Source of the DNA: Chloroflexota bacterium
GTDB lineage: Bacteria > Chloroflexota > Anaerolineae > DTLA01
Assembly: GCA_014360805.1 (NCBI GenBank)
Contig: JACIWU010000011.1
Coordinates: forward strand, 1-57,721
DNA length: 57,721 bases
Direction of reading: 5' to 3'
The notes under the pieces were generated by a model that did no database searches, was not told the origin of the DNA, and saw only the letters and a program-made list of their open reading frames with translations. Of this stretch, positions 16,557-52,663 are shown in pieces (position 1 is the first letter of the stretch; every line of letters begins with the position of its first letter). The translations under genes and the position numbers were made by a program.

Positions 16557-17480
16557 TCAATCACGGGTTGCGCCCGACCATTGGGCGACCTGCACGCACT
16601 CCACTGCGGTACGCCAGACCGTCTCCATCTCCTGGCGAGTGAGAAGAGGCACAGCGTCCAGCGCGTAGTTCAGATCCAGCCTGTGATACTTCGGCTTCCC
16701 CAAGTTGGTGTACGCCAGCAGGTCCCACCGCTCCACATTCGGCAGGCACTCGCGTATGAACCGCCCGATAGCCTTGATGTTCTCCAGATCGTCGGTGTAC
16801 CCCGGGATGACTGGCGTTCGGATCCATGCGGGCTTCCCCAGCGCAGCAAGGCGCTGCGCATTGACGAGAACGTTGGCATTGTCCATGCCTGTTGCGGCCT
16901 TGTGGCGCATTGGATCCAGAATCTTCAGGTCAAGCAACACCAAGTCTACATAGAGCAGCACGCGCTCATACGCCTCCCAGGGCAGCACGCCGCTTGTATC
17001 CAGAGCGACGTGAATCCCCTCATCTTTGCAGCGTTTCGTTATCTCCGCGAGGAAGTCAACCTGCAACATTGGCTCCCCGCCGCTAAACGTTACGCCGCCC
17101 CCCGAGGTCTCGTAGAACACCCGGTCCTTGAGAATCTCGGCAACCAGTTCCTCAACCGTCCACCGACGCCCGATGGCCTCAAGCGCCGCTGCCGGGCACG
17201 CCTGCACACATAGCCCGCACACCGTGCACTGTTCCCTGTCAATCCTCATGCCGCTGGGCGTCAATTGCAGAGCGCCCTCGGGGCAGACGCGAAGACAATC
17301 GCGGGCCGCGATGCACCGCGTGTCATGCCAGACCAGGTCCGGCTGGCTCCGCAGCCCCTCCGGGTTATGGCACCAAGCGCACCGCAGCGGGCAACCCTTC
17401 ATGAACACCGTGGTGCGGATGCCCGGGCCATCTTCAGTGCTGAACTGCTGAACGTTGAATGTAACGCCTGTAGTCGCCAA
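16557..17480 (-). CDS. glycyl-radical enzyme activating enzyme (radical SAM, PflA family)
   Basis: The protein has 307 residues. It has the radical-SAM cluster motif in GCPLRCAWCHNPEG (CxxxCxxC, about residue 30), and an inserted ferredoxin-like pair of [4Fe-4S] sites (CIAARDCLRVCPEG and CTVCGLCVQACP, residues 55-100), then TFSGGEPMLQ. The two extra clusters mark activases of dehydratase or decarboxylase-type glycyl-radical enzymes rather than PflA itself. It abstracts H from the partner's glycine to make the radical, under anoxic conditions. The TTG at 17478-17480 is preceded by GGGGAG. It follows the glycyl-radical enzyme gene by 35 bases, so that protein is almost surely its partner. Confidence 0.9.
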   Translation of the reverse strand: MATTGVTFNVQQFSTEDGPGIRTTVFMKGCPLRCAWCHNPEGLRSQPDLVWHDTRCIAARDCLRVCPEGALQLTPSGMRIDREQCTVCGLCVQACPAAALEAIGRRWTVEELVAEILKDRVFYETSGGGVTFSGGEPMLQVDFLAEITKRCKDEGIHVALDTSGVLPWEAYERVLLYVDLVLLDLKILDPMRHKAATGMDNANVLVNAQRLAALGKPAWIRTPVIPGYTDDLENIKAIGRFIRECLPNVERWDLLAYTNLGKPKYHRLDLNYALDAVPLLTRQEMETVWRTAVECVQVAQWSGATRD

Positions 17481-17515: not shown

Positions 17516-19993
17516 TCACAGTGCGTGGCTTTCGCGGGTGATGATCTCATCCTGAATCTCCTTGCCCAACCCCACGAAGTACGCATTGTACCCGGTAACC
17601 CGCACCAGGAGATTGCGGTATTCGTCCGGATGCTTCTGGGCCTCGCGCAGGGTTTCGGGACTGATCACGTTGATCTGTAAGCACGTGCCCCCTACCCTGC
17701 CGTATGCGCGCAGGAGCGCAGCGAGTTTCTGCCGCTGCTCGGCGCTCCGCAGCAGCGTAGGGCTGAAACTCATCGTATGGCTCGCGCCATTGGGGGCGGT
17801 CTCCAACCCCAAACGCCCCACGCTCTTGATCACCGCCGTCGGCCCCTTGCGGTCCGCCCCGTTCACCGGGCAGACAGCATTGGACAGGTACTGCCCCCGC
17901 TTGCGGCCATCCGGCGTGGCCGCTGTGGTCGGCGCATACGCAATCCAGTAGTTCCACGACAGGTAGCCGCCTCGGTACCGTTTTCCCGTTGGAGACACAT
18001 GACGGAACGCTTCTTCCGTCCAGAAGCGGCTCGCTTCCCTGGCGATATCGTCCACGTAGGGGTCGTCGTTGCCGTACTTCGGCGCCTTGTTGATGAGCGT
18101 CTGCCGCAGGGGCTCGTGCCCCTCAAAGTTCGCTTTGATGGCTGTCAGCAGGTCATCCATCGCAATCTGCTTGTCATCAAACACCAGTTTCTTCACCGCG
18201 GCCAGGCTGTCCGCCGCCGTCGCCAGGGCGATTCCCTCCACCGTGAGGAAGTTGAATTCCGCGCCACCGGCGTTGCTGTCCTTGCCACTCTGCAAGCAGC
18301 CATCCACCAATGCGCTCATATACGGCACCGGCTCCCAGCGCGCCCGCCCTACGTCGGCCATGTCGTTCACGCGGATAATCCACTCCAGCAGGTGCTTCAA
18401 CTGCGCCTTGAACGCTGCAAAGAACTGGTCAAAGGATTGAAAACCGCGCGGGTCTCCCGTCTTCGGGCCAATCTGCTTGCCCGTGGCCATGTCGCGGCCA
18501 TCGTTCAGGGCTAACTCCACGGCCTTCGCCAGGTTCAGATTCACATCCACCGTCCCCGAGCGGTCGCACCCCTGCAAGGTGTTTTCCAAGCACCCCACAG
18601 GCGCGTAGTCCCACAGGCGATCCTCAGGCAACCCTTGCCAGCGCAGCCCAGCCATAGAGTTCTCGTCAAAGTTGATGAGGAATGCCGACCCCTGCGTCTT
18701 GGACAACATGCTCACAAGGCGCTCCAGGAGCCTGTCGGGCGTACGCGCGTGGATGCGAACGTTGGGCTTCGGCTCCAGCAGGTTGATCTCCTCTATGACG
18801 TCCAGCATCAGGTACGTCAACTCATTGGAAGCATCGCTTCCATCGGCCTTCATCCCTGCGAGGGTGATCAACTGCCCGAACGACGAGTTGATGCCCTGGT
18901 TCGTCCCCACCCAGCCCTGGTAGTCGTACGCGTAATTGTCCTTGATATCGGGGTAATTGTTGATGGCCACGTACATCGTGGGCACGCCCTGGTAGTCGTA
19001 CGCGTAATTGTGCTTGATCCACCAGCATTCCAACCACTCCTTTGCCTGCTCGCGGGTCAACCGCCCGGATTGGAGATCCGCCTCGTAGTACGGATACAAG
19101 TACTGATCCACCCTCCCGGGCGACACTCCGGGGCCCGGATAACTCTCGGCGGCCATGAGCAGCATGTGCGTCGTCCAGAGCGCCTGAAGGGCCTCGGGGA
19201 ACGTCTCGGGCGGCAACCACGGCACCTTGCGGCAGATGCGGGAGATTTCCAGCAGTTCAGCGCGACGTGCGGGGTCGGTCGCTTCGCTGGCTTGTCGCTC
19301 GGCCTCTGCCGCGTACCTCGCCATGAACTCTGGCACTGCCTCCGCACAGATCACCACAGCACGCGCCAAGTCCCGCTGCTCGCGCGTGCTGTTCGAGTCG
19401 TCGGCGATAGCCAGCGCCTCGTCGCGAATGCCCTTCCAACCCACACGCAGGACTTTCGGATAGTTCGGGATCAGATGCCCGGGCACCGCCCCGCAGTTGC
19501 CCACGCCTACGCTGTTCAGTTTGTCCCATTCTTTGAAGAACGCTTCCTCTTCGCGGTCGCGCCGCGTCGCCTCCTCTCGCGTCAGGCATCGCGACAGAGC
19601 CGCGTTGAAGTGAGACCCTACGATCAGTTCTCCTTCCCGTATCTGCGTGGGCAGATAGCCCCGTAGCACCTCGCGGAAGAACAGAGCGCGCCGCACGACC
19701 AAAGGCTCGTCCCAGAATCCGGCGGGGAGTCTCACGGGTGTAGCCGCCGCCAAGAGGTAACTGCGGTAACCGCGCTGAAACATGGCGACCTCGGGGACAT
19801 TCGTCCAGTTCCAAATGGAGTACACCGTGTCCCACGGCGTTCCTGTTGTGTAAGCCCGCACCTCATTGGTGAAATCGCGGGTGTAGAATGACCAGTACTC
19901 ATCTCGGAGGCGCCTGATGCGGGGGGACAGCGTGTCGGCAGCGGACCAAATCTGCGCAGGAGATACCACCGTGCAAGCCTCTGAAGTGCTCAT
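17516..19993 (-). CDS. glycyl-radical enzyme (PFL-like) with an in-frame templated insertion
   Basis: The protein has 825 residues. The active cysteine is in APVGCLEN (Cys468, GCxE as in dehydratase/decarboxylase-type members) and the radical glycine in RVTGYNAYFVGL (Gly801). The motif WVGTNQGINSSFGQLITL follows an odd segment: NYAYDYQG occurs at 329-336 and again at 353-360, separated by VPTMYVAINNYPDIKD. Together with Gly336 that spacer is identical, in DNA and reading frame, to residues 300-316 of the acyl-CoA ligase at 21260-22942. Without it the protein would be 801 residues, a normal size. ATG 19991-19993 has GGGAGGG upstream. It is the first gene of the operon; substrate unknown. Whether the enzyme tolerates 24 extra residues is open. 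Confidence 0.9.
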   Translation of the reverse strand: MSTSEACTVVSPAQIWSAADTLSPRIRRLRDEYWSFYTRDFTNEVRAYTTGTPWDTVYSIWNWTNVPEVAMFQRGYRSYLLAAATPVRLPAGFWDEPLVVRRALFFREVLRGYLPTQIREGELIVGSHFNAALSRCLTREEATRRDREEEAFFKEWDKLNSVGVGNCGAVPGHLIPNYPKVLRVGWKGIRDEALAIADDSNSTREQRDLARAVVICAEAVPEFMARYAAEAERQASEATDPARRAELLEISRICRKVPWLPPETFPEALQALWTTHMLLMAAESYPGPGVSPGRVDQYLYPYYEADLQSGRLTREQAKEWLECWWIKHNYAYDYQGVPTMYVAINNYPDIKDNYAYDYQGWVGTNQGINSSFGQLITLAGMKADGSDASNELTYLMLDVIEEINLLEPKPNVRIHARTPDRLLERLVSMLSKTQGSAFLINFDENSMAGLRWQGLPEDRLWDYAPVGCLENTLQGCDRSGTVDVNLNLAKAVELALNDGRDMATGKQIGPKTGDPRGFQSFDQFFAAFKAQLKHLLEWIIRVNDMADVGRARWEPVPYMSALVDGCLQSGKDSNAGGAEFNFLTVEGIALATAADSLAAVKKLVFDDKQIAMDDLLTAIKANFEGHEPLRQTLINKAPKYGNDDPYVDDIAREASRFWTEEAFRHVSPTGKRYRGGYLSWNYWIAYAPTTAATPDGRKRGQYLSNAVCPVNGADRKGPTAVIKSVGRLGLETAPNGASHTMSFSPTLLRSAEQRQKLAALLRAYGRVGGTCLQINVISPETLREAQKHPDEYRNLLVRVTGYNAYFVGLGKEIQDEIITRESHAL
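18915..19012. repeat. 26-bp direct duplication flanking a 52-bp copy of the acyl-CoA ligase gene
   Basis: Bases 18915-18940 and 18987-19012 are identical (26 bp, offset 72). Between and slightly overlapping them, 18939-18990 is the exact reverse complement of 22156-22207 (52 bp). On the coding strand the left joint shares GGGC between donor and recipient. The right joint shares ATCAAG plus AC with one mismatch. The insertion is 72 bp, a multiple of three. Confidence 0.95.
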
Positions 19994-20042
19994 GAAGTCT
20001 CCCTCCCTTTCAGGTTTGGACGACAGACACTCAGACGGTGCT

Positions 20043-20071
20043 AGTATATCCCAGGAACCCGTCGCTGGCAA
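20043..20071 (-). promoter_or_regulatory. sigma70-like promoter of the glycyl-radical operon
   Basis: Minus strand TTGCCA, 17 bases, TATACT, 50 bases upstream of the ATG at 19993. Divergent from the rnc promoter. Confidence 0.6.
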
Positions 20072-20102
20072 AGCGGCCGCCGAGCACATACGAGGCCAAT
20101 TC

Positions 20103-20131
20103 TTGCCCCTCATTCACCGCCGTGCTATACT
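20103..20131 (+). promoter_or_regulatory. sigma70-like promoter of rnc
   Basis: TTGCCC, 17 bases, TATACT, 42 bases before the rnc ATG. Confidence 0.55.
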
Positions 20132-21259: not shown

Positions 21260-22942
21260 ATGGAACGACCCTGGCTGAAGTTCTACGAACCCGGCGTACC
21301 TGCAAGCATCCCTTACCCGGACATCCCCCTACATCAGAATCTCGCCGACGCCGCCAGAGATTACCCACACAGCCCCGCGACGATCTTCTTTGACGCAACG
21401 CTCACCTACCAGCAACTGGACGCTTTGGCCGATCGCTTTGCCGCAGGGCTTCAACAGGCGGGCGTCAAAAAGGGCGACCGCGTCGCCATCTACATGCCCA
21501 ACTGCCCGCAGTTCATCATCGCCTACTACGGCGCTCTGCGGGCCGGCGCCATCACGGTCCCGTGCAACCCCCTCTACGTGGCGCGCGAGTTGGAACATCA
21601 ACTCAACGACTCCGGCTCCGAGACCATCGTGGCGCTCAGTAAGTTGTACCCGGTTGTCAGGGCCATCCAAGACCGCACGCACCTCAAACGGGTCATCGTA
21701 ACCAGCATCAAGGAATACTTCCCACCCATCTTACGCCTGCTGTTCACACTCCTCAAGGAGAAGAAGGAAGGGCACGTGGTGGACATCTCCAACGCGCCGA
21801 ACACCATCTGGTTTCAGGATTTCCTCCGCACGGCGCCGCCAAAACCCCAGCCTGTGCCCGTGCAACCCCAGGACACCGCATGCCTGCTCTACACCGGCGG
21901 AACCACAGGTGTCCCCAAGGCCGCGGAACTGAGCCACCGGAATCTCGTCGCCAACGCTATTCAGTGCTGTGTCTGGTGCTCCGGCAAAAGGGGACAGGAA
22001 CGTTTTCTCGCCGCCCTGCCCCTCTTCCACAGTTACGGAATGACCACCTGCATGAACGCGGGCATCTACCTGGCATCTCCCGTCATTCTCCTTCCGCAGT
22101 TCAAACTCAAGGATGTACTGGAAGCCATCAACAAACACCAGCCTACTATCTTCCCGGGCGTGCCCACGATGTACGTGGCCATCAACAATTACCCCGATAT
22201 CAAGGACTACAATCTGCGCTCCATCCGCGCATGCATCAGCGGCGCCGCGGGCCTGCCGGTGGAGGTACAGCAGAAGTTCCAGGAACTGACCGGCGGCCGC
22301 CTGGTGGAAGGCTACGGGTTGAGCGAGGCATCGCCCGTTACGCACGGCAACCCGGTCTTCGGCGATTGCCGAATCGGCACCATCGGCGTGCCCTTCCCCG
22401 ACACAGACGCCAAGATCGTTGACCTGGAAACCGGCGCACGGGAGTTGCCCCCTGGCGAGACCGGCGAACTGATCATCAGAGGCCCGCAGGTCATGAAGGG
22501 ATACTGGAACCGCCCTGACGAGACAGCCCTCGTCTTGCGAGAGGGTTGGCTCTACACCGGCGACATCGCCCGCCGCGATGCCGATGGCTACTTCCAAATC
22601 GTGGACCGCAAGAAGGACATGATCATCGCAGGTGGATTCAACATCTACCCCCGCGATGTGGAGGAAATCCTCTACCAACATCCCAAAATCAAAGAGGCGG
22701 TGGTCGCAGGCGTCCCCGACGAGTACCTGGGAGAAGTCGTCAAGGCGTATGTCGTGCTCAAAGAGGGGGAAACCGCTACCGAGCAGGAAATCATTGAGTT
22801 TTGCCGCCAAAGCCTCGCCAAGTACAAAGTCCCTCGCGTTGTGGAGTTCCGCAAGGACCTCCCCAAGACCATGGTGGGCAAAATCCTGCGCCGCGTCCTC
22901 GTGGAGGAAGAGCGCGCTAAAATGGCCAAAGCCAAGCAGTAG
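21260..22942 (+). CDS. long-chain fatty acid-CoA ligase (AMP-forming)
   Basis: The protein has 560 residues of the ANL adenylating superfamily: the P-loop YTGGTTGVPKAAELSH (about residue 213), FPGVPTMYVAINNYP, GYGLSEASP (about 350), YTGDIARRDADGYFQIVDRKKDMI with the hinge Asp/Lys (about 433-455), and a catalytic Lys in KTMVGKILRR near the end. It activates fatty acids to acyl-CoA with ATP, at the cytoplasmic membrane side. ATG 21260 follows GGAGGAG. Codons 300-316 (22156-22207) are the likely donor of the segment found in the glycyl-radical enzyme gene, because FPGVPTMYVAINN is native to this family. It stands alone with its own promoter. Confidence 0.92.
   Translation: MERPWLKFYEPGVPASIPYPDIPLHQNLADAARDYPHSPATIFFDATLTYQQLDALADRFAAGLQQAGVKKGDRVAIYMPNCPQFIIAYYGALRAGAITVPCNPLYVARELEHQLNDSGSETIVALSKLYPVVRAIQDRTHLKRVIVTSIKEYFPPILRLLFTLLKEKKEGHVVDISNAPNTIWFQDFLRTAPPKPQPVPVQPQDTACLLYTGGTTGVPKAAELSHRNLVANAIQCCVWCSGKRGQERFLAALPLFHSYGMTTCMNAGIYLASPVILLPQFKLKDVLEAINKHQPTIFPGVPTMYVAINNYPDIKDYNLRSIRACISGAAGLPVEVQQKFQELTGGRLVEGYGLSEASPVTHGNPVFGDCRIGTIGVPFPDTDAKIVDLETGARELPPGETGELIIRGPQVMKGYWNRPDETALVLREGWLYTGDIARRDADGYFQIVDRKKDMIIAGGFNIYPRDVEEILYQHPKIKEAVVAGVPDEYLGEVVKAYVVLKEGETATEQEIIEFCRQSLAKYKVPRVVEFRKDLPKTMVGKILRRVLVEEERAKMAKAKQ
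22156..22207 (+). repeat. 52-bp donor segment, inverted copy at 18939-18990
   Basis: Exact reverse-complement match to 18939-18990; encodes GVPTMYVAINNYPDIKD in both genes. Here it sits in a conserved part of the ligase, so this is taken as the original location. Confidence 0.95.
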
Positions 22943-24019: not shown

Positions 24020-27000
24020 CTACCAGCCTCGCGGCGGGATGGCGCGATCGCCGGCCGCTGCGTCCCACCATAGCCCTCTGGACACGAACGGCAGGAATGC
24101 CCTGCGCACCAGGGGCCGCGGCGTGGAGGTTGGCGTCCGCGTCGCCGTAGCCGAAGGCGTTCGCGTGGGAGTCGCGGTGGCGGCCAGAGTGGCCGTTGGC
24201 GTGTTCGTGCGCGTGGCCGTTCGCGTCGCCGTCGGGGTGCTCGTCGGCAACCCCGTAACCGTCGGGACAGGCGTTGATGTTCGCGTGAGTGTCGGCGTCG
24301 GTGTCGGCCCAGGCCAGTAGATGACCGTAACGGTTGCGTCCCCTGGCGCAGGGGTATCGGGGTCGTCGCTGTAACTCACCAGCGTCCCGACGTACAGGAT
24401 CGCCTGATTCACCGCATTCCCCTGCCCCACCGGCCGCACGCGCACATCCAACACGATGGTGGCCGTCTCTCCCGAGTTCAGTGTGTCTATGTACACCTGC
24501 AGCGGGCTGTAGGTCAGCACAATCCCGTGCGACGGCGAAAGGCTCCCAGCCACATACTCCACCTGGGCCGGGAGGTTGTCCACGATCAGCAGGCCATAGG
24601 CTGTCGTCGGCAGGTTGTTGACAATCGTCAGCGTATATCGCAGCGTGTCCCCCGGCGAGGCCATGCCGTTGGAATCCGCGTCATTCACCAGCGCGGCCTG
24701 CTTCCAGAACAGCCCCTGCCACCCAACGCCAGGCGTGGGCGTAAAAGTGGGTGTCGGCGTAAGGGTCGGCGTGGGCGTGTGTGTCCGGGTGGCTGTCGGC
24801 GTCGGCGAGGGCGGCGGCGTCGGATAGACATCCGTGCACGTCGGATCATCCAAAGGCGTGTCGGGGTCATCGGTCAGTTCATCGCAGACGCACTGCTCCT
24901 CCTGGCAGCGAATCGCAACCAGTCCCCTATTGCAAATCCGGTCCACGCCTTCCAGGATAACCACGCGGAACCGAATCGTTACCCCCTGGTACGGCGCCAA
25001 GTCGGCGCGGCAAATGAGCGGTATCTCGCTCACCACTTCCCCCACTGGCTCAATGGACAGGCTTCCGGGCACCAGCAGCGTGCCATCGGGAACTTGATCG
25101 GTGAACGTCATCACCGACGGCAGCGACAGGTTGTTCTGCACCACAATCTCGTACTCAATCGTGTCGCCCGGAGACGGCACGCCGCTTCCATCCGCATCTA
25201 TCACGAGCGAATCCGTCTTCCATGCGCACACATCATCCGTGCAGCCGGGTGGCGGTTCGCGTGTAGGCGTTGCGGTCGCCGTGGCGGTGGCCGTGGTGGT
25301 CGGCGTCGCCGTCGGCGTAATCACGTCAAAGCAGGTGGGGTCGTCATCGTAGGGCGTGTCCGGGTCATCGGTCAGTTCGTCGCAGACGCACTGCTCCACC
25401 TCGCAGCGCGTGGACACAAGTCCCTGATTGCAGATGCGAGTCACCCCGGCCAACACCACAACCCGGAATGTTACGACGAACGACTGGCCCGGCTCCACTG
25501 GCGCCGTGCAGATGATGGGAATCTCGCTCACCACGTGCCCGACCGGGGTAATGGACAAACTGCCGGGGACAAGGGCAGTGCCCGGCGGCACCTGGTCCGT
25601 GAACGTCATCACCGCCGGAATTGGCAGGTTCGTGTGAATGATGATGGTGTACTCAATGACATCGCCGGGCGATGGCAAGCCGTTGTCGTCCACGTCCTCC
25701 GCGATGGCAAAGTATTTCCAGGCGCACACATTTTCCTCACAAACCGGCGGCGGTATCCGCGTGCGCGTCGGCGTGCGGGTCGGCGTGGGCGTCGCCGTGT
25801 TCGTGGGGGTGAACGTGGGCGTCGCCGTTGGGGTTCGCGTGCGCGTCGCCGTGCGGGTCGCCGTGGCCGTCCGCGTCGCCGTCGGGGTCCGCGTATTGGT
25901 ACTGGTGTAGGTCGCCGTTGCCGTGGGCGTCTGCGTCGGCGTGAATGTCGGCGTCGCCGTCGGCGAAGATGTGTACGTGAACGTCGCCGTGAACGTATGC
26001 GTAGGCGTATACGTCGCCGTTGGCGTAAAGGTAGGCGTAGCCGTCGGTGTCGGCGTGGGCGTGAACGTCGGCGTCGCCGTGGGCGTGCTTGTGGGCGTTG
26101 GCGTGGCCGTCGGTGTCGGCGTAGGCGTAAACGTGGGCGTTGACGTCGGCGTGTTCGTGGGCGTGGAGGTCGCGGTCGCCGTCGGTGTGGGCGTAGGCGT
26201 AGGAGTATGCGACGGCGTGGCGGTAAACGTCGGCGTTCCCGTCCGCGTCGCTGTAGGTGTGGCGGTCGCCGTAGGCGTTTGCGTTGCGCTGGGCGTGGGC
26301 GAGGCCGTCGGCGTCGCGGAAGCGGTCGGCGTCTCGGTGACGGTCGCGCTTGGCGTGAATGTTGGCGTGTGCGTCGGCGTATTCGTGTCCGTAGGGGTGG
26401 GCGATGGGGTGAGCGTCGTCGTCGGCGTGGGCGTTTCCGTAGGCAACGGCAGGTCAAAGAAGTACAGACAATCCGAGTGCGTGGGCGCCGGATCACCGAG
26501 AATCTCGTTCGGGGTAATCGGATGCCACATGCTGTTGCCCACCGCCCGCGTGGAGTAGAACCCCACCGGATCCGTTTCCACCACCAGCAGCGTGATGTAC
26601 GGCCACTTGCCCACGAACTCAAAGAACCCGAATTCGTTCGTTACGTCCTCCGCGAGCAGCACCAGTGAGTCATCCGGTAGTTTTTGATAAAGCGTTACGG
26701 TAACCCCTGGGATGGCGATAGGCTCCAACAGGTCCTGCAGCACATATCCCACGATACGGCTATCCACCGCCGTCGCGGTCGGGGTCGGGGTGGGCGCCCG
26801 GCGCACGAAAACCGCCGTGCCCCACGTGCCCGGGGAAGGCAACGTCGCCAAGATGGTCGTGGCATCCACGATGACAGAACCCGGCAGGGTGCTAGATGCG
26901 CTCACCGCGGTGTAACCGTCTCGCATCTGCCATTGGACAATGCGGAAGTAGCCGGACAGCCCCTGCGTGTTCACTTCCAGTGTGAAACTCCCGTCCCACT

Positions 27001-27610
27001 CGGTGCTGGTGATATCCGCAGAAATCTGCCAGGACGAGCCCGTCCACAGGTCTGCCCGCACCGTCCAGCCCGCCAAACCCGTGCCGACCGTATCTTCCAC
27101 ACGCCCTTGGATACGGTACAGCGTAACGACCGACGGCGTTCTGGTCGGCGTGTTCGTGGGGCCAGGCGTATTCGTCCGAGTGCGCGTAGGTGTCGGCGTG
27201 GATGTGGCCTGCACGAGGCGGTCCACAAACGTGGCGCAACTGGGCGGCGGCGACGTAGCCTCTACGCGGTCTGCGTTGATCGTCGTCCAGCCCAAACCCG
27301 AAGCCGAGACCGACACGTAGCCTGGAGGATTGTTCTCGGTAACCGCATACCGCTCATAGTCGGGGCCGGTGTAGATCAGGAGGCGGTTCCCCGTGGAATC
27401 GGTGTAGCCGCTGACCAGAGTGTACCACGTGGTCCCGCTCTTGCCCCAGAGCGTCATCAGCGCGCCGGGGATGCCCGTGCCCGATTCGTCTCGCGCCCAC
27501 GCGCAGACGCTCAGCGAGGGATCTGCACTCGCGGGTGCCCGGTAGAGCAGCGGTGCGAGTACAAGCGCCAAAGCCAAAAGTCCCAACCAGACCCAACGAG
27601 TGCGCACCAT
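24020..27610 (-). CDS. large surface protein: carboxypeptidase-regulatory-like modules, Thr-Pro linkers, three DUF11 domains
   Basis: The protein has 1196 residues. A signal peptide ends near PASADP (residue 30). Three CarboxypepD_reg/SdrB-like modules occupy about 31-120, 165-275 and 285-390. A Thr-Pro linker of roughly 225 residues follows (393-620), then two nearly identical DUF11 modules (about 621-747 and 787-927, both with [29 protein letters not shown]), a third more distant DUF11 (965-1097), another Thr-Pro linker, and the tail [14 protein letters not shown]. That tail resembles the LPxVxR-like ends common on Chloroflexota secreted proteins, possibly a sorting signal (inference). ATG 27608-27610 has GGGAGG upstream. 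Probably an extended cell-surface stalk or adhesin; no catalytic motif. Confidence 0.75.
25750..26440 (-). repeat. low-complexity Thr-Pro coding repeat
   Basis: About 690 bp of 6-base-periodic sequence (GTCGGC/GTGGGC-like on the plus strand) encoding alternating Thr-Pro/Ala-Thr. A shorter run lies at 24130-24310. Such tracts are prone to slippage and misassembly, so length may vary between strains. Confidence 0.8.
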
Positions 27611-27673
27611 GGTAACCTCCCGCAATGCTCACAAACGCGACCAGGGCTCGGCTGCAACCGTTATGTCATGCAC

Positions 27674-49575: not shown

Positions 49576-49657
49576 CAACTCTACGCCGCCCGACAGCGAA
49601 TGTAATCCCCTAGCCCAGCCCCGTTCGCGGGAAGACGACCGAGGCACGCGCGCCGCC

Positions 49658-49745
49658 CCCTCTCCCACCAGGAGAGGGCTAGGGTGAGGGACGCCGCCCG
49701 CGCGAGGGTACCCCTACCCTTCAGCCCGATGCTTCAGCGTCAGGC
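49658..49745 (+). repeat. dispersed repeat family R1, copy 1
   Basis: Starts CCCTCTCCC, then a palindromic GGAGAGGG arm, AGGGTGAGGG, a GCGCGAGGGTACCCC block and CGATGCTTCAGCGTC. Shared nearly base for base with 52544-52650; partly with 56833-56964 in reverse. It lies in the 401-base gap 49534-49934, which holds no gene. Confidence 0.8.
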
Positions 49746-49819
49746 GCCCCCGCCCCCCGGCAGCGTATTCCGTCCGTCGGGGAGATAAAGGGCCCGTAAC
49801 GTGGGGCCCCACCCGCCGC

Positions 49820-52520: not shown

Positions 52521-52543
52521 GCTGGCCCTCGCCGCGCGTCACT

Positions 52544-52650
52544 CCCTCTCCCGCCGGGAGAGGGCTAGGGTGAGGGAGGCCGCCCGCGCGAGGGTACCCC
52601 AGCCCGCAGGGCTTCGCCCCTTCAGGCCGATGCTTCAGCGTCGGGCGGGC
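52544..52650 (+). repeat. dispersed repeat family R1, copy 2
   Basis: Same order of blocks as copy 1 (CCCTCTCCC, GGGAGAGGGCTAGGGTGAGG, GCGCGAGGGTACCCC) plus an extra CCCGCAGGGCTTCGCCCC segment before CAGGCCGATGCTTCAGCGTC. It sits between the PfkB and LarA genes. Confidence 0.85.
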
Positions 52651-52663
52651 GCGCGTGTCGCCG

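Follow-up and report, generated by a model that had tools for sequence, protein, structure and literature searches.

Double inverted template switches (MMBIR) have been described in the Lac system of starving Escherichia coli cells, where an inverted segment is bounded by two novel joints, the joints carry 3-30 bp of microhomology and the donor is retained (PMC3161906). The locus that we describe here, in the draft genome of a Chloroflexota bacterium, shares these features. In E. coli the copied segments were 5-43 kb long, or tens of bases remained at the ends of inversions (PMC3161906), whereas the copy seen here is only 52 bp long, passed in frame from one gene to an unrelated one, and comes from a wild genome with no selection applied. 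Template-switch mutations are also known from yeast coding genes (PMC8604942) and from great apes (PMC7954356), and they resemble the present case in that a coding sequence is changed in one step. However, the yeast switches need a prior inverted repeat nearby and yield substitutions or inversions of a spacer (PMC8604942), while here the donor is 3.2 kb off and 24 codons were added. Two further systems give products that look similar. In yeast, double-strand breaks can receive templated inverted insertions, which are likewise short inverted copies with microhomology at a joint (PMC11724301), and the chimeras formed in vitro during multiple displacement amplification (MDA) are likewise inverted, span less than 10 kb and are primed by a few complementary bases (PMC1855051).

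The window that we analysed, a stretch of 57,721 nucleotides, is contig C11 of a draft genome of 3.24 Mb in 154 contigs (completeness 96.15, contamination 1.87). The recipient is a glycyl-radical enzyme gene (17516-20113, minus strand) that is open throughout its 865 codons from the first ATG, with similarity to relatives starting near codon 26. Its product has the Pfam domains PFL-like (4.7e-142) and Gly_radical (2.4e-27), the motif RVxGYxAxF and the active-site cysteine of a PFL-like glycyl radical enzyme, and both C508 and the glycyl-radical residue G841 are intact and invariant across the family. The gene is single-copy at this similarity in the source genome, and the two same-genus genomes used for comparison, G001 and G002, carry one copy each. 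Every score of the recipient against the NCBIfam equivalogs fell below the cut-off, so no characterised equivalog could be assigned. The clade to which it belongs, with a near-invariant IK[HP]NYAYDY, is spread over Chloroflexota, Actinomycetota, Deltaproteobacteria and archaea (Methanolliviera, Methanophagales), and it stays below all of these equivalog cut-offs. In one homologue, from a Deltaproteobacteria MAG (L038:6001-8449), the matched span has two stop codons in the tested frame, reflecting a frameshift, a pseudogene or an assembly error. The adjoining gene (16557-17480, minus strand) encodes a radical-SAM/4Fe-4S protein (Pfam Radical_SAM 1.9e-19, Fer4 domains) that probably activates the glycyl-radical enzyme. 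An acyl-CoA ligase gene (21260-22942, plus strand; Pfam AMP-binding 3.8e-104) contains the donor. Beyond it, a long minus-strand open reading frame (24020-27625, 1201 aa, DUF11) holds dozens of degenerate repeats at 12/18 bp spacing.

The insert occupies 18938-18989 on the minus strand and is an exact 52-bp inverted copy of 22156-22207 on the plus strand, a segment that remains intact within the ligase gene. This match is far beyond chance, and it is the sole inverted repeat of at least 20 bp in the window. Insert and donor both read GVPTMYVAINNYPDIKD in frame, as had been claimed from the sequence alone; the two genes have opposite orientations, so an inverted copy stays sense in sense. A 26-bp direct repeat flanks the insert in two exact copies offset by 72 bp, each on the minus strand. 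In coding order the first follows IKH (18986-19011) and the second precedes WVGTNQGINSSFG (18914-18939), and relatives have a single copy. The recipient gene has thus gained 72 bp, or 24 codons, with the frame kept and no stop created. The sequence-only reading had recognised the inverted copy, the repeat and the net gain, and its donor position of 22156-22207 was right, but its recipient interval (18939-18990) and its repeat copies (18915-18940 and 18987-19012) were placed one base too high; the copies so placed differ at their last base.

Short homologies had also been proposed at the joints, and these are present. At joint 1 (18986-18989, minus strand), where the enzyme gene passes into the donor, the enzyme reads ...GACTACCAGGGC in coding order and the donor continues with GTGCCCACG...; an exact 4-bp GGGC is common to both. 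At joint 2 (18938-18946, minus strand), where the donor passes back into the enzyme gene, ATCAAGGAC is identical at eight of nine positions to the ancestral ATCAAGCAC at 19010-19018. Here the donor reads ...GATATCAAGGAC in coding order, followed by AATTACGCG... of the enzyme; the ancestral enzyme has ...GGATCAAGCACAATTACGCG at this place, which makes ATCAAG.AC the common word (8/9, the last two bases exact). Among random pairs of positions in both genes, four exact bases are expected with P ~0.005, and eight of nine or better with P 2.2e-4 (0.022% of pairs). Each of the common words sits in the same codon phase in the enzyme gene as in the ligase gene, which is why the reading frame was kept. 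If synthesis had run in the reverse direction, joint 2 would have offered only GT to prime on, which favours the coding direction.

The source species is represented by one genome. The state of the site before the event was read from G001 and G002. The enzymes of both have exactly 24 residues fewer at the insert site, with flanks 79-86% identical; comparison of the gene in its relatives, a check that the sequence-only reading had proposed, thus found the 72 bp absent and the surroundings conserved. We also aligned ~58 close homologues (Chloroflexota, Actinomycetota, Deltaproteobacteria, archaea and others) together with distant glycyl-radical enzymes. The ~58 close homologues show IK[HP]NYxYDYQG-WVGTNQG as a gapless, nearly invariant segment and cross IK[HPN]NYxYD and NQGIxSxFGQL without a gap. 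No insertion at this site was found in any homologue aligned across it, including the distant enzymes in which the same 24 residues, had they been native, were to be sought. The site being empty in relatives and homologues alike, the insertion arose either in the source lineage or in its DNA library.

The source of the insert can be traced to its own genome, where it matches the donor at 52 of 52 positions. The donor segments of G001 and G002 differ at several bases and were rejected as a source; in them the P codon ends in another base, so that the GGGC of joint 1 is CGGC. Another ligase was rejected as well, since the C14 paralogue is 84% identical over 43 bp only. All 78 copied bases (insert plus duplication) are identical, which bounds the divergence between copies at <=3.8% (95% bound), and divergence to the nearest species is 16% across the gene and 46% at fourfold sites. 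Given equal rates, the event would fall no earlier than roughly the final quarter of the branch. The empty sites in relatives, the retained donor, the exact identity and the microhomology at both joints together give strong support to the view that the ligase gene was the template of an insertion that is recent and lineage-specific.

We consider it probable that the insert is a recent mutation in the lineage, made by a microhomology-mediated, MMBIR-like double inverted template switch. During synthesis of the enzyme-gene strand in the coding direction, the growing 3' end would have come off its template after ...TACCAGGGC and used GGGC to anneal to the opposite strand 3.2 kb off, within the acyl-CoA ligase gene. 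Some 46 new bases would then have been copied from the donor, up to ATCAAGGAC, before the strand annealed again to the enzyme gene at ATCAAGCAC, upstream of its exit point, and synthesis resumed. Such a sequence of steps would leave the donor untouched, insert its inverted copy, duplicate 26 bp of the recipient and add 72 bp in frame; the duplication would follow from the second switch having landed upstream of the first. Two successive inverted switches are most likely, being the simplest account and one that covers every feature, and the locus shows what is expected of an MMBIR-like event: an exact copy with the donor retained, an ancestral site that is empty and microhomology at the joints. 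That the switches occurred in the cell, in the direction described and through a polymerase, is our inference. The proposal of two template switches is partly supported: the anatomy and the joints bear it out, and the setting was probably the cell and less likely DNA amplification. The event is an instance of an already known class of mutation. The scale of one replication fork is ~1.5 kb (PMC3161906), less than the 3.2 kb to the donor, which makes it necessary to suppose a second strand or a broken fork. We rejected a quasipalindrome-type switch, because there is no prior inverted repeat nearby; the donor is 3.2 kb off and ancestral homology is confined to the joints.

The strongest competing explanation is that a chimera made in vitro, by phi29 MDA or by template switching in PCR, entered the consensus at low coverage and that the gene of the organism is normal. 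Chimeras of MDA are 85% inverted, mostly join sites less than 10 kb apart and are mostly primed by complementarity of 2-21 nt (PMC1855051), and the 3.2-kb spacing and short joint homologies (4 bp; 2 bp, 8/9) of the insert fit this pattern. The insert also interrupts a segment that is unbroken in every homologue. However, MDA chimeras usually consist of two segments with one joint, typically with a deletion between them (PMC1855051), whereas here there are two joints, nothing is deleted and the second joint leads back into the enzyme gene 26 bp upstream. The contig extends for 57.7 kb, with the insert deep inside it, and its aligned blocks are otherwise all collinear with G001. Joints of 2-4 bp should moreover be beyond an assembler that has no reads containing them, and by the same reasoning we rejected a pure assembler error without chimeric reads, as overlap of k-mers cannot make such joints, even though local assembly errors without read support have been described by curators of MAGs (PMC7111523).

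To see how common such structures are in the data, we surveyed a sample of stretches from the same assembly, ~1.43 Mb in total. It contained only one further long inverted copy of unique sequence, at the start of contig C4, where C4:1-38 is the reverse complement of C4:1375-1412. This 1.37-kb fold-back splits an ABC permease gene and contradicts both G001 and G002, in which the same DNA is contiguous and uninverted; genes that border the region in G001 and G002 are not found in the assembly at the expected identity. Inverted chimeras, or genuine rearrangements left unresolved, thus seem to be present in the data, which counts in favour of an artefact. Against it, only 1 of 122 contig ends examined folds back in unique sequence, and of 16 insertions of at least 15 bp relative to G001 (~217 kb compared) the present one alone is templated by an exact distant donor. 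The one other strong match among the 16 (C1 7659-8361) is to its own immediate neighbourhood and is a tandem repeat. Taken together, we regard an in-vitro origin as somewhat unlikely.

The remaining inverted copies in the survey are members of repeat families located between genes. Palindromic families, CGTAGGGCGGCTTTCCATAGCCGCC among them, have ~50 occurrences in the 1.43 Mb sampled, and in the window itself 49647-49753 and 52533-52654 are intergenic repeat copies that are 86-89% identical. Two blocks, C7 2983-5257 and C82 4373-6273, are inverted relative to G001; they map ~200 kb and ~10 kb away there and so look like ordinary rearrangements.

A staggered double-strand break could also have left a direct repeat, if 26-nt overhangs were filled in and a copy or fragment of the ligase gene was captured by alternative end joining. 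The 26-bp repeat around the insert does resemble a filled-in stagger, and at breaks in yeast templated insertions are known in which one side is closed by end joining (PMC11724301). But local break insertions in yeast need NHEJ proteins to close (PMC11724301), and a search did not find Ku in the assembly, while the same search found Ku in Bacillus subtilis as a control. Classical NHEJ is disfavoured on this ground. The 8/9 homology at joint 2 also exceeds what end joining needs, and a staggered break calls for more independent steps than two switches do, so we hold this route to be very improbable. That the 24 residues are a native, functional element lost by the relatives might seem to agree with the kept frame and lack of a stop, but this is barely conceivable, since no homologue of any phylum has the element and losses in relatives could not produce the DNA identity to an unrelated neighbouring gene or the exact 26-bp duplication.

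What the insertion would do to the enzyme was addressed with AlphaFold2 models built from 34 sequences. For an insert-free relative, a helix at 330-354 is predicted to run through IKHNYVYDYQGWV into a low-confidence loop at 355-363. With the insert, the helix is predicted to end at 366 and pLDDT drops below 50 for residues 370-413, but the fold is preserved elsewhere (pTM 0.85); by fold, each model is matched to HypD, CutC and glycerol dehydratase. As AlphaFold2 leaves residues 370-413 unresolved, the activity of the insert-bearing enzyme appears doubtful. The suggestion that the insert tests how much such an enzyme tolerates found no support here, confidence being lost throughout the region of the insert. 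Tolerance would be argued best by the 26-bp duplication, owing to which both halves of the conserved segment stay complete, and loss of function by the invariance of that segment in all close homologues. We think it decidedly unlikely that a spontaneous double switch moved a 17-residue piece of the ligase, in its original frame, into a conserved part of the radical enzyme and that the altered enzyme still works, which would be protein shuffling at the scale of a peptide, through an error of replication, in a wild bacterium.

If the insert proves to be an artefact, it is a warning that an open reading frame is no safeguard against a chimeric consensus in draft genomes. If instead the double template switch took place in the cell, as we favour, the locus would be a fresh natural case from a wild bacterium, young enough that donor, joints and duplication are still legible base by base. 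A long-distance inverted switch would then have given an unrelated protein a foreign peptide in a single step, providing a route for the shuffling of coding sequence without homologous recombination or mobile elements.
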